Below the pieces are notes generated by a model. That model had not been told where the DNA came from. It worked only from the letters and a program-made list of their open reading frames with translations, and made no database searches. A DNA stretch of 64,000 nucleotides. It comes from Parabacteroides sp. PF5-9. GTDB taxonomy: Bacteria; Bacteroidota; Bacteroidia; Bacteroidales; Tannerellaceae. Positions 4,331 through 60,490 of this stretch are shown here, one piece after another. The translations under genes and the position numbers were made by a program. The first letter of the stretch is position 1. Every line of letters begins with the position of its first letter. The stretch spans positions 62,001-126,000 of the forward strand of contig NZ_JARXWG010000002.1 of assembly GCF_029893105.1 (NCBI RefSeq), in the 5' to 3' direction.

Positions 4331-4450
4331 CTTTTTTGTTAGAGGTACCTCTAAATTATTTTAGACGTACCTCTAAACGGATTTACACCTACCTCTAAAT
4401 TCATTTAGACGTACCTCTAACAGAAAACGGAGGTAGGTCTAACAAAAAAG
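4331..4450. repeat. 22-bp phased palindrome array, family A copy 1
   Basis: A 120-bp element bounded by inverted ends (CTTTTTTGTTAGA and its complement). It contains five 16-bp units starting at 4339, 4361, 4383, 4405 and 4427, exactly 22 bp apart with 6-bp spacers. The first unit is a perfect palindrome, TTAGAGGTACCTCTAA. Units 2 and 4 are TTAGACGTACCTCTAA, unit 3 is TTACACCTACCTCTAA, and the fifth is degenerate. A copy about 96% identical, in reverse orientation, lies at 50412-50531. It is in the divergent intergenic region between the efflux operon and the regulator gene, between two pairs of operator-like sites. Confidence 0.9.
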
Positions 4451-10634: not shown

Positions 10635-11492
10635 ATGAACAGATCCCTCAAAGCGTATGCGCTTTTAGCTGTAAAAGGTATTGCCATGGGTGCGGCAGAT
10701 GTTGTACCCGGAGTCTCAGGCGGAACAATCGCTTTTATAGTCGGTATATATCAGGAATTGTTAGATGCTATAAAAAGTATTAATGGTTCAAGCCTAAAAA
10801 TGCTTTTTACCGGTAAAATCGGTTCTTTCTGGAAAGCGATTAACGGTAATTTTTTGCTAGCATTGGTTTGTGGCATTGCGATCAGCATCTTTTCACTGGC
10901 CAAACTGATTACCTATTTATTAGATACTCATCCGATTTTGGTCTGGTCGTTCTTTTTCGGATTGGTATTAGCTTCTACCTGGATTGTTTCTAAAGATATC
11001 ACGCAATGGAGTTGGAAAACCGTACTGGGTTTTATCATCGGTGTTGTAGTGGCTTATTTTGTAACGGTTGCTACTCCGGCAGAGACACCCGACGGGCTTT
11101 GGTTTATTTTTATTAGCGGTGCGATTGCAATCTGTGCGATGATTCTTCCAGGCATATCCGGTAGTTTTATTTTAGTACTGTTAGGGAAATATTATTATGT
11201 TATGGAAGCTGTTAAAACGCTCAATATCCCTGTAATAATCGTATTTATCTGCGGTGCGGCCATCGGTATTACCAGTTTTTCCAGGATATTATCCTATACG
11301 TTGCGTAAATTTCGAAACATGACTTATGCCGTATTAGCCGGATTTATGCTGGGCTCGCTCAACAAAGTATGGCCTTGGAAATTGGAAGACACGAATATCC
11401 TGCCAAATGAACTGATCTGGCAAGCTTTCGGACTCATGTTTATTGGCTTTTTACTGGTTTATTTCTTAGAAAAACTCTCAGCAAAGAAATAA
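10635..11492 (+). CDS. DUF368 membrane protein (undecaprenyl-phosphate translocase, PopT-like)
   Basis: Polytopic membrane protein of 285 aa. Two diagnostic DUF368 motifs are visible: DVVPGVSGGTIAFIVGIY near residue 25 and MILPGISGSFILVLLGKYY near residue 175. They are the inverted halves of the fold, and about eight hydrophobic segments run through the protein. Family members (PopT) were shown to return undecaprenyl phosphate across the inner membrane for cell-wall and surface-polysaccharide synthesis, so that role is likely but unproven here. The gene starts 4 bp after the TPR gene, suggesting one transcript. Confidence 0.88.
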   Translation: MNRSLKAYALLAVKGIAMGAADVVPGVSGGTIAFIVGIYQELLDAIKSINGSSLKMLFTGKIGSFWKAINGNFLLALVCGIAISIFSLAKLITYLLDTHPILVWSFFFGLVLASTWIVSKDITQWSWKTVLGFIIGVVVAYFVTVATPAETPDGLWFIFISGAIAICAMILPGISGSFILVLLGKYYYVMEAVKTLNIPVIIVFICGAAIGITSFSRILSYTLRKFRNMTYAVLAGFMLGSLNKVWPWKLEDTNILPNELIWQAFGLMFIGFLLVYFLEKLSAKK

Positions 11493-28804: not shown

Positions 28805-28878
28805 GGCCGCGTAGCTCAACTGAATAGAGTAGCTGACTACGGATCAGCCGGTTACAGGTTTGAATCCTGTCGCGGTCA
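28805..28878 (+). tRNA. tRNA-Arg(ACG)
   Basis: Cloverleaf drawn by hand: acceptor GGCCGCG pairs with CGCGGTC, D stem GCTC/GAGT, anticodon stem GCTGA/TCAGC with loop CTACGGA (anticodon ACG), and T stem ACAGG/CCTGT with loop TTTGAAT. Discriminator A; CCA is not encoded. Decodes CGN arginine codons, normally after A34-to-inosine editing. Confidence 0.95.
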
Positions 28879-28913
28879 CACTTCTCGGAAAGCATAAACA
28901 TTTATTTGACAAT

Positions 28914-28987
28914 GGCCGCGTAGCTCAACTGAATAGAGTAGCTGACTACGGATCAGCCGGTTACAGGTTTGAATCCTGTCGCGGTCA
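28914..28987 (+). tRNA. tRNA-Arg(ACG), second identical copy
   Basis: Identical over all 74 nt to the gene at 28805-28878, 35 bp downstream of it. The spacer differs from the flanks, so only the tRNA itself is duplicated. Shares the upstream promoter and the terminator at 28991-29019. Confidence 0.95.
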
Positions 28988-28990
28988 CTA

Positions 28991-40923: not shown

Positions 40924-41031
40924 AAACAAGAATTCATTTGACAGTTGTAGAACGATCGTTCTATAATTATCAAATGATCAAACGACAATTGTGAAACGAT
41001 CATTTGACAATTGTCAAATGAATTCTTGTTT
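40924..41031. repeat. 22-bp phased palindrome array, family B
   Basis: A 108-bp element with perfect 20-bp terminal inverted repeats (40924-40943 and 41012-41031; AAACAAGAATTCATTTGACA). Four 20-bp units start at 40935, 40957, 40979 and 41001, exactly 22 bp apart, each separated by AT. The last is a perfect palindrome, CATTTGACAATTGTCAAATG. The right half of unit 1 (TTGTAGAACG) complements the left half of unit 2 (CGTTCTATAA) with one transition, so the half-sites are shuffled versions of each other. It starts 8 bp beyond the stop of the outer-membrane protein gene. Confidence 0.9.
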
Positions 41032-41038
41032 CAGATAT

Positions 41039-42277
41039 TTAAAACTGTTTGATCAGAAAAGAGGGGTTTACACGTACATAGACCCCAAAAGAGAAGCTGG
41101 TCGAACCATTTATCGGTTTCCATCCGGTTTCAGGTTCATGCATTTTCCCTGATAAGGTCTGGTACACATCTAAATCGACTCCCAGTGAGAATCCTTTACC
41201 CAAAGAACGGGAATATTCCATGCCTAAATAGACCATCTGAGGGCGCTGATAGGTCGCTCCATTTTCACGGGTAGATACGGCACCATAAAAAGGCACACCA
41301 AACATGGAAATAAATTCATCACATTGCCAATAAGCTGTTTTTACCCTGAAATCAGAAATATCGGCCATTGCTTTCGCATACAGGCCATACCCGCTGTCAA
41401 AAGGCCAGATCTCACCGGCTTGCTGATAATAACCGGCTATATCCAATTCGACATTCAGTTTTTTGAAAACCCGATGTCCGGTATTCCAAACACCTCCTAC
41501 TCCCAATGCTCCATTCATTAATGTCTGCACAGAACTAACGGTTAGTGTATCAATCTCCCCACCTCTATGTTGCGCCACTCCTTGTATAGGGATATAAAAA
41601 TGGTATGGAGATGTGGGTGCATTCAGTTTCAGGCGACTTGATAACCCTACTGTAAAAGCTTCCTGATGCGTATCTTCCCGATAAATAAAACTTTCCCAAT
41701 TCAACCAGGCATCCAAATCAAAGGATTGAGAATGATACAGGAGTTGGACTCCGGCTTCAGGATCTGCTGTCAGATTCAATTCCGGGCTATAGAGTGGTTC
41801 AATCAAACGGTGGTTAGATGCACCATAGATATTTCCAACGATCAGATCGATACGATCACTCAATCGCATCTGTACCCGGAAAAACGGAAGAAAATGGGCT
41901 CCCTTTTGATACTGATTCCCTTTCCAAACAGGTATATCTTTGTAAGCCATACTTGGGTACTTATGCGCTCCGTGATAAAATAACATATGAAGACCGGCTT
42001 CAAGTTTGATGTTGGATAAAGGGTAATAGACTGCCTTGGGTTGTACCCAAAGCCCCGGTAATGAATAGCCTTTCATGACTGTTCCGGCATATTCATTGTT
42101 TTTGAAAAAGCTGAGATTATCTAATTCGACAAAAAGCTGCTTCTCTTTTGTGGGATCGATCTGGTAAGCTGTTTGGTATACTCGCTCTTCAAGCTGTGCC
42201 AACAAGGGTGTATATAGGAGCCATACTCCTAAAATAAGACAACAGCGAACGAAACAGGTCCTTTTCATCATCATCAT
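41039..42277 (-). CDS. Predicted outer-membrane beta-barrel protein, unknown function
   Basis: Exported protein of about 412 aa. Four ATG codons stand in a row at 42266-42277, so the exact start is uncertain; all give the same signal peptide (RTCFVRCCLILGVWLLYTPLLAQ region). The mature part is rich in Tyr, Trp and Gly in alternating strand patterns (NIKLEAGLHMLFYHG, FDLDAWLNWESFIY, GLYAKAMADISDFRVKTAYWQ) and ends in SFSFGVYVRVNPSFLIKQF, an outer-membrane barrel-like tail. No family is recognised with confidence. It stands alone downstream of the RNA-binding protein gene, separated from it by a terminator. Confidence 0.75.
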   Translation of the reverse strand: MMMMKRTCFVRCCLILGVWLLYTPLLAQLEERVYQTAYQIDPTKEKQLFVELDNLSFFKNNEYAGTVMKGYSLPGLWVQPKAVYYPLSNIKLEAGLHMLFYHGAHKYPSMAYKDIPVWKGNQYQKGAHFLPFFRVQMRLSDRIDLIVGNIYGASNHRLIEPLYSPELNLTADPEAGVQLLYHSQSFDLDAWLNWESFIYREDTHQEAFTVGLSSRLKLNAPTSPYHFYIPIQGVAQHRGGEIDTLTVSSVQTLMNGALGVGGVWNTGHRVFKKLNVELDIAGYYQQAGEIWPFDSGYGLYAKAMADISDFRVKTAYWQCDEFISMFGVPFYGAVSTRENGATYQRPQMVYLGMEYSRSLGKGFSLGVDLDVYQTLSGKMHEPETGWKPINGSTSFSFGVYVRVNPSFLIKQF

Positions 42278-42286
42278 TTTTTTTTG

Positions 42287-42294
42287 CAAACGTA
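42287..42294 (-). promoter_or_regulatory. -7 element TACGTTTG of the outer-membrane protein gene
   Basis: Minus-strand TAnnTTTG match only 9 bp from the first of four tandem ATG codons, implying an almost leaderless mRNA if it is used. Confidence 0.55.
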
Positions 42295-50411: not shown

Positions 50412-50531
50412 TTTTTTTGTTACACCTACTTCTGTTTTCTGTTAGAGGTACGTCTAAATGAATTTAGAGGTAGGTGTAAATCCGTTTAGAGGTACGTCTA
50501 AAACAATTTAGAGGTACCTCTAACAAAAAAG
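50412..50531. repeat. 22-bp phased palindrome array, family A copy 2
   Basis: Reverse-complement copy of the element at 4331-4450: 120 bp with five differences by my count (about 96% identity). Units start at 50420 (degenerate), 50442, 50464, 50486 and 50508, exactly 22 bp apart. The last is the perfect palindrome TTAGAGGTACCTCTAA. The flanking DNA is not shared between the copies. It lies between the divergent acidic-protein and lipoprotein genes. Confidence 0.9.
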
Positions 50532-60257: not shown

Positions 60258-60396
60258 AAATCCCTGCGGGATTTGGCCTTCGGAAAATCTTCAAACATTA
60301 CACTATTTGAAATAAGCACTGCCCCTCTATTAAAAGAATTCTTCAGATCCTCTATCCCATTCCTCTCAATCTACAATCATTTTTATCCTCATACTT

Positions 60397-60490
60397 TAAT
60401 CGTCTACCAGTTGGAGCACTATCGTCCACCAATTGGATCACTTCCGTCTACCAACTGTGTCACTATCGTCTACCAATTGGTAGACGATTA
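60397..60490. repeat. 22-bp phased palindrome array, family C
   Basis: A 94-bp element with 14-bp terminal inverted repeats (TTAATCGTCTACCA at 60397-60410 and its complement at 60477-60490). Four 20-bp units start at 60401, 60423, 60445 and 60467, exactly 22 bp apart with 2-bp spacers. The first three are near-direct repeats of CGTCTACCAATTGGATCACT, and the last is the perfect palindrome CGTCTACCAATTGGTAGACG. Located about 150 bp downstream of the acyltransferase gene. Confidence 0.9.

Follow-up and report, generated by a model that had tools for sequence, protein, structure and literature searches.

Four intergenic elements within the 64,000-nucleotide stretch of the Parabacteroides sp. PF5-9 genome analysed here (the window) are composed of short palindromic units set at a fixed 22-bp interval, and they raise the question of what such a geometry would do for a bacterial chromosome and which protein would read it. 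An initial annotation had assigned the four to three unrelated sequence families that share only their geometry, and had named a multimerizing DNA-binding array, non-autonomous mobile elements, and RNA hairpin chains as possible roles.

Anatomy and abundance of the arrays

Direct reading of the sequence confirmed the positions of the four elements and the exact 22-bp distance between their dyads. Array A1 (4331-4450, plus strand) carries the perfect unit TTAGAGGTACCTCTAA at 4339-4354, further units at 4361-4376, 4383-4398, and 4405-4420, and an inverted outer unit at 4427-4442, and is flanked by ACTTTTTTGT and ACAAAAAAGT. Array A2 (50412-50531, minus strand) lies in the opposite orientation and is 97% identical to A1 across 119 bp, with its perfect unit at 50508-50523, other units at 50486-50501, 50464-50479, and 50442-50457, and the outer unit at 50420-50435. 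Array B (40924-41031, plus strand) has a perfect palindrome, CATTTGACAATTGTCAAATG, at 41001-41020, with dyads every 22 bp leftward of it, with 8 bp between the array and the stop codon of an LpxZ-family gene encoded on the minus strand (41039-42289). In array C (60397-60490, plus strand), the perfect palindrome ATCGTCTACCAATTGGTAGACGAT occupies 60465-60488 and the other dyads fall at 60454/55, 60432/33, and 60410/11; its left flank (60335-60396, plus strand) corresponds to a part of the family C consensus in which T-tracts continue the phase of about 22 bp. The window also holds, at 28805-28988, a tandem pair of tRNA-Arg(acg) genes with equal Rfam scores.

Dyads occur every 11 bp, alternating between core and spacer, and the spacers between units measure 2-6 bp and recur from copy to copy rather than being unique, on which ground a CRISPR array was rejected. 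The units had been described as progressively imperfect; what is found instead, in most family A arrays, is a half-site polarity around one perfect unit, the canonical half-site of the other units lying on the side away from it, and in 22 of 41 PF5-9 arrays this polarity reads exactly <<<P. Polarity explains why the palindromy of family A units falls below the column-composition prediction (z between -3 and -6 for six of the seven dyads). It also accounts for the reported terminal inverted repeats: the ends are indeed inverted, as a consequence of unit polarity, and no target-site duplication was visible by eye in aligned copies, nor did an alignment of C copies show direct repeats beyond their ends, which vary independently (e.g., CTAA...TTAG). 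The array ends read TTAATCG, ATTCRTTYGA, and ACTTTTTTGT. The division into three families stands insofar as A1 and A2 form one family, giving three in all, but families B and C are akin in design, with a shared CAATTG core and profiles that cross-match in register. In family C, T-tracts to the left of the core and A-tracts to its right carry the phase of about 22 bp some 60 bp further, with strongest periodicity at 22-24 bp. In a covariation analysis, family B had a single clear pair, which is local (34/39), and lacked global pairing; family A showed anti-covariation, for which its polarity accounts.

The four elements are far from the only instances in the genome. Family A gave 480 unit-pair matches, versus none with a reversed-pattern control, and at least 86 arrays were mapped; family B has about 40 copies (at least 40) and family C 36 (at least 36), and all three families are dispersed. 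Every classified copy lies in an intergenic gap, the open reading frames that cross arrays being only 71-91 aa long. The frequency of 22-bp spacing by chance was assessed by scanning 800 kb of the PF5-9 genome together with the window (864 kb) for four consecutive palindromes at fixed periods of 12-45 bp, which returned 32 loci for the 22-bp period, 19 for 33 bp, two for 44 bp, one for 17 bp, and none for any other period; dinucleotide shuffles gave none in the same scan. The 33-bp loci are a harmonic, since a symmetric 22-bp unit brings with it another dyad at a distance of 11 bp; 22 bp is the sole period with an excess of palindrome arrays in these 864 kb. Background aside, all loci in the scan belong to family A or B, family C scoring lower on this test. 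Many contigs of the assembly stop roughly 100 bp inside an array of family A or B (e.g., C6:1, C7:111, C10:112, C15:101, C17:103, C24:105, and C26:91), which indicates that the arrays break short-read assembly.

HU-HIG genes and the arrays upstream of them

HU is regarded as a largely sequence-neutral nucleoid protein, and HU-like families are expanded in the Bacteroidota. PF18291, the HU-HIG family, with an HU fold and a C-terminal part, reportedly treated by Burroughs et al. in 2017, was picked for testing ahead of any genome counts. It has strong multi-copy matches in nearly all genomes of the same bacterial family; outside the family, strong multi-copy sets occur, among 24 genomes, only in G059 (17) and G047 (12). 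G059 is also the source of the sole 22-bp match outside the family (L203:869), which is barely above threshold.

The PF5-9 genome has just two HU-HIG genes of about 200 aa, and each adjoins an array: a B copy (C30:42466-42561) lies directly upstream of one, and a C copy (locus L077, C39:11281-11376) directly upstream of the other (C39:10517-11126). The resulting prediction, that one copy of a family should lie upstream of a HU-HIG gene, held in two relatives for an unrelated family, with arrays at C3:220428-220531 in G020 (HU-HIG gene at C3:220581-220958) and at C1:1929939-1930038 in G011 (HU-HIG gene at C1:1929506-1929883). The arrangement proposed for a HU-HIG-operator class is thus found for B, C, and one family of G020 and G011. 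No HU-HIG gene was found next to a family A array in the PF5-9 genome; the small genes beside A arrays are XRE-cupin, ECF sigma, and RimP genes.

Among named records (P. distasonis, B. finegoldii, P. massiliensis, and two faecal scaffolds, and thus Parabacteroides, Bacteroides, and Phocaeicola), all 18 long HU-HIG genes (about 200 aa; 17 tested and one found in passing) have an array within about 200 bp upstream, one of them weak, compared with 2 of 98 control genes in the same upstream test. The period is 22 bp in 15 of these arrays and 21 bp in three (z 3.5 to 16), the 21-bp cases being L296, L302, and L308. Similar HU-HIG proteins have similar arrays (n = 16, Mantel P = 0.007). The upstream copy occupies a promoter or 5' leader position, and in most of the named cases a TAnnTTTG box closely precedes it; of 8 putative HU-HIG operators tested, 6 have such a box no more than 60 bp upstream, versus 7 of 204 sides at which a promoter box reads into a dispersed copy. 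One dispersed array of B. finegoldii (L316:367) is by eye of the same family as the putative HU-HIG operator in L311, which extends array dispersal beyond the Tannerellaceae. The short, 148-aa HU-HIG gene of P. distasonis (L314:12399-12845) has no array upstream, and the two short HU-HIG genes of PF5-9 (open frames of 146 and 164 aa), likewise array-free, resemble it; arrays are perhaps confined to the form of about 200 aa with the C-terminal part.

Spacing of the arrays and their occurrence in other genomes

The arrays keep apart from one another. The 162 known arrays of the PF5-9 genome, spaced on average about 20 kb apart, show no gap below 5 kb (29.1 +/- 4.4 expected) and only two below 7 kb (38.9 +/- 4.6 expected); the lengths of contigs C8, C13, C29, and C30 were approximated in this test, and a version restricted to known lengths agrees. 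Exclusion is equally strong within and between families, and the density of array pairs is highest at about 8-16 kb. In fully scanned stretches (826 kb, 36 arrays), no two arrays are closer than 7.8 kb, and the gaps have a coefficient of variation of 0.58, versus 0.90 for random placement in intergenic gaps of at least 200 bp (P about 0.001). Exclusion is clear in this one genome; a like trend is present in relatives, where it is weak or marginal (P = 0.036). Exceptions occur in other species, in which two arrays of different families are separated by less than 180 bp at L181:11415/11591 (G008) and at L146:13568/13747 (G011).

The claim that geometry rather than sequence is conserved was borne out in Tannerellaceae-type relatives, where many unrelated unit sequences likewise recur at 22 bp. 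At least six are present in G008 alone (GCCGGC, ACCGGT, GAGGTACCTC, CCAAAGTGCAATG, AAGCGCAATGTTTT, and AACTCTTAGATGTT). Comparison loci from the same bacterial family, picked solely for their LpxZ or acyltransferase genes (187.5 kb), hold 10 arrays with a 22-bp period and no array with a period of 19, 20, 23, 25, 26, 28, or 29 bp, whereas in other families of the order (282 kb) the same detector found no 22-bp array and a single 23-bp one; 50 kb of E. coli yielded no arrays.

Positions are not conserved in the same way. Between genera, array positions are shared no more than expected from chance occupancy, and family A itself occurs patchily across genera. The gap 3' of LpxZ holds arrays of unrelated sequence in PF5-9, G018, and G063, which agrees with each gap having a probability of about 6% of being occupied by chance. 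The exception beyond chance occupancy is one family A site in a convergent gap, common to PF5-9 and Parabacteroides sp. PH5-46 (L104, about 10720-11071, and L137, 3970-4150), at which the flanking proteins are merely 73% and 62% identical. A search for empty sites returned one orthologous array-free gap (L038 of PF5-9 versus G020), too diverged for dating.

A proposed role in chromosome organization and its alternatives

The geometry, copy number, sequence diversity, operator position, protein-array co-variation, and mutual exclusion of the arrays are probably explained by HU-HIG proteins occupying each of them as several dimers, with an operator in one copy of each family and chromosomal anchors in the rest; HU-HIG binding, autoregulation, and the organizing role are here inferred from sequence. 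Palindromic units set two helical turns (22 bp) apart would bring several DNA-bending dimers onto one face of the helix to form a single nucleoprotein patch. That dimers would be so aligned had been surmised in the initial annotation, and the surmise is now strongly supported, HU-HIG being the likely reader, with an array in its own promoter or leader. Each array family would be matched by one HU-HIG paralogue, and the copy just downstream of the promoter of that gene would serve as an autoregulatory operator. The remaining tens of copies, mostly promoterless intergenic sites that almost never approach within about 7 kb of one another whatever their family, would probably be interchangeable anchors that bend, bridge, or bound chromosomal domains, their spacing counting rather than their identity. 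Family A speaks against this scheme, since it is the most abundant family and no HU-HIG neighbour was found for it, both HU-HIG genes of about 200 aa in PF5-9 being taken by B and C; the turnover of positions between genera counts against a strictly positional role. The array-free short HU-HIG gene of P. distasonis and the marginal exclusion in relatives also weigh against the scheme.

An expanded HU family thus appears to own sequence-specific multi-site arrays with autoregulatory copies and a minimum spacing that is independent of family, which suggests an undescribed system of bacterial chromosome organization. More tentatively, Bacteroidales chromosomes in general might be marked every 10-30 kb or so by arrays that are read by paralogous sequence-specific HU proteins; the families would be interchangeable, the code would consist of the 22-bp geometry and the spacing, and the sequence alphabets would diverge fast between species, like centromere DNA. 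If true, this would be a bacterial system of domain marking in which numerous pairs of reader and site co-evolve. The HU-HIG arrays proposed here would provide a reader and address system for nucleoid organization in abundant gut bacteria as well as a natural case of fast co-evolution of protein-DNA specificity at a fixed geometry. The question of what determines bacterial domain boundaries would become directly testable in a single genome with two HU-HIG genes and about 160 mapped arrays.

Several known systems share features with the arrays. The MatP/matS and Noc/NBS systems pair a sequence-specific protein with tens of dispersed nucleoid-organizing sites. Those sites are single and short, restricted to macrodomains, and served by one protein per genome, whereas the present arrays comprise four units, appear to involve several paralogous protein-site pairs, and follow a genome-wide spacing rule. 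The REP/BIME and ERIC sequences of enterobacteria are dispersed intergenic palindromic repeats, some BIMEs binding IHF or gyrase, and the spread of REP has been linked to Y1 (RAYT) transposases. They have neither a fixed 22-bp array nor an operator copy at the gene of a binding protein, and a REP/REPIN system with RAYT was rejected, as Y1 transposases (PF01797) number zero in PF5-9, G011, and G020 despite the presence of arrays. Within the Bacteroidales, the BrickBuilt MITE of Porphyromonas gingivalis is likewise a dispersed intergenic tandem repeat with inverted ends, and its sites match assembly gaps (PMC4596501). It is built from a non-palindromic 23-nt head-to-tail repeat, AGAYCATARTATCCTCTCRTRTG, has IS5-type terminal inverted repeats and some target-site duplications, and exists as 19 copies of one sequence family, with no HU partner described (PMC4596501). 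Identity with BrickBuilt was rejected, given the 22-bp palindromic units of the arrays and the absence from them of an IS5-like GAGACC terminal repeat. On the protein side, HU PG0121 of P. gingivalis prefers a 77-bp inverted repeat of the capsule locus in the neighbourhood of its own gene (PMC3969353), although it is an ordinary HU of about 10 kDa and its target is a single inverted repeat, no phased array or dispersed copies being described (PMC3969353). For HU-HIG (PF18291), no description of cognate palindrome arrays turned up in the literature examined, in which the single paper that names HU-HIG is unrelated.

Three other explanations were weighed against HU-HIG anchoring. If HU-HIG proteins were ordinary regulators and the dispersed arrays their regulon, the promoter position of the HU-HIG copies and the frequent placement of arrays between divergent genes would be natural, but promoter boxes rarely read into dispersed arrays, convergent, tandem, and divergent placements occur much as in other gaps of at least 200 bp, and a minimum spacing irrespective of family would be unexpected; this reading is decidedly improbable. 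The same orientation mix led to rejection of a terminator or attenuator role. That the arrays act as RNA, as hairpin chains or one long hairpin in transcripts, is hardly credible. The window arrays do fold into long hairpins (-35 to -53 kcal/mol each) and the putative HU-HIG operators sit where a 5' leader is expected, but such folding is common to any palindrome array, local pairing in family A falls below the column-composition expectation, transcript direction is unlinked to the dispersed copies, and no Rfam family matches at the arrays. For the dispersed copies, the suggestion of RNA hairpin chains is disfavoured also by the promoter-box counts given above.

The arrays are also unlikely to be simply selfish or MITE/REP-like repeats, spread as elements of about 100-300 bp by a transposase or recombinase, with the HU-HIG gene and its array as master copy or host silencer. 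Their many intergenic copies, inverted ends, patchy family A distribution, rapid family turnover, and unconserved positions between genera would all suit such elements. On the other side stand the failure to see target-site duplications by eye, the lack of Y1 transposases in PF5-9, G011, and G020, the lack of any gene between two same-family arrays in about 2 Mb examined, and the exclusion among unrelated families, which ordinary target immunity leaves unexplained. Of the mobile-element idea, what survives is a way in which copies may have spread, by transposition-like dispersal of arrays that the host later put to use. A phage or plasmid origin was rejected, as collections of plasmids and phages yielded nothing that matches family A and IMG/VR nothing that matches the patterns of A and B, while four matches to the C pattern are not arrays; viral contigs contained no HU-HIG relatives. 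Three PLSDB entries listed as plasmids (NZ_OY725757.1, NZ_OY725936.1, and NZ_OY725904.1, from TSDC17.2-1.1 strains) carry rpoB, dnaN, and gyrB and resemble chromosomal contigs.
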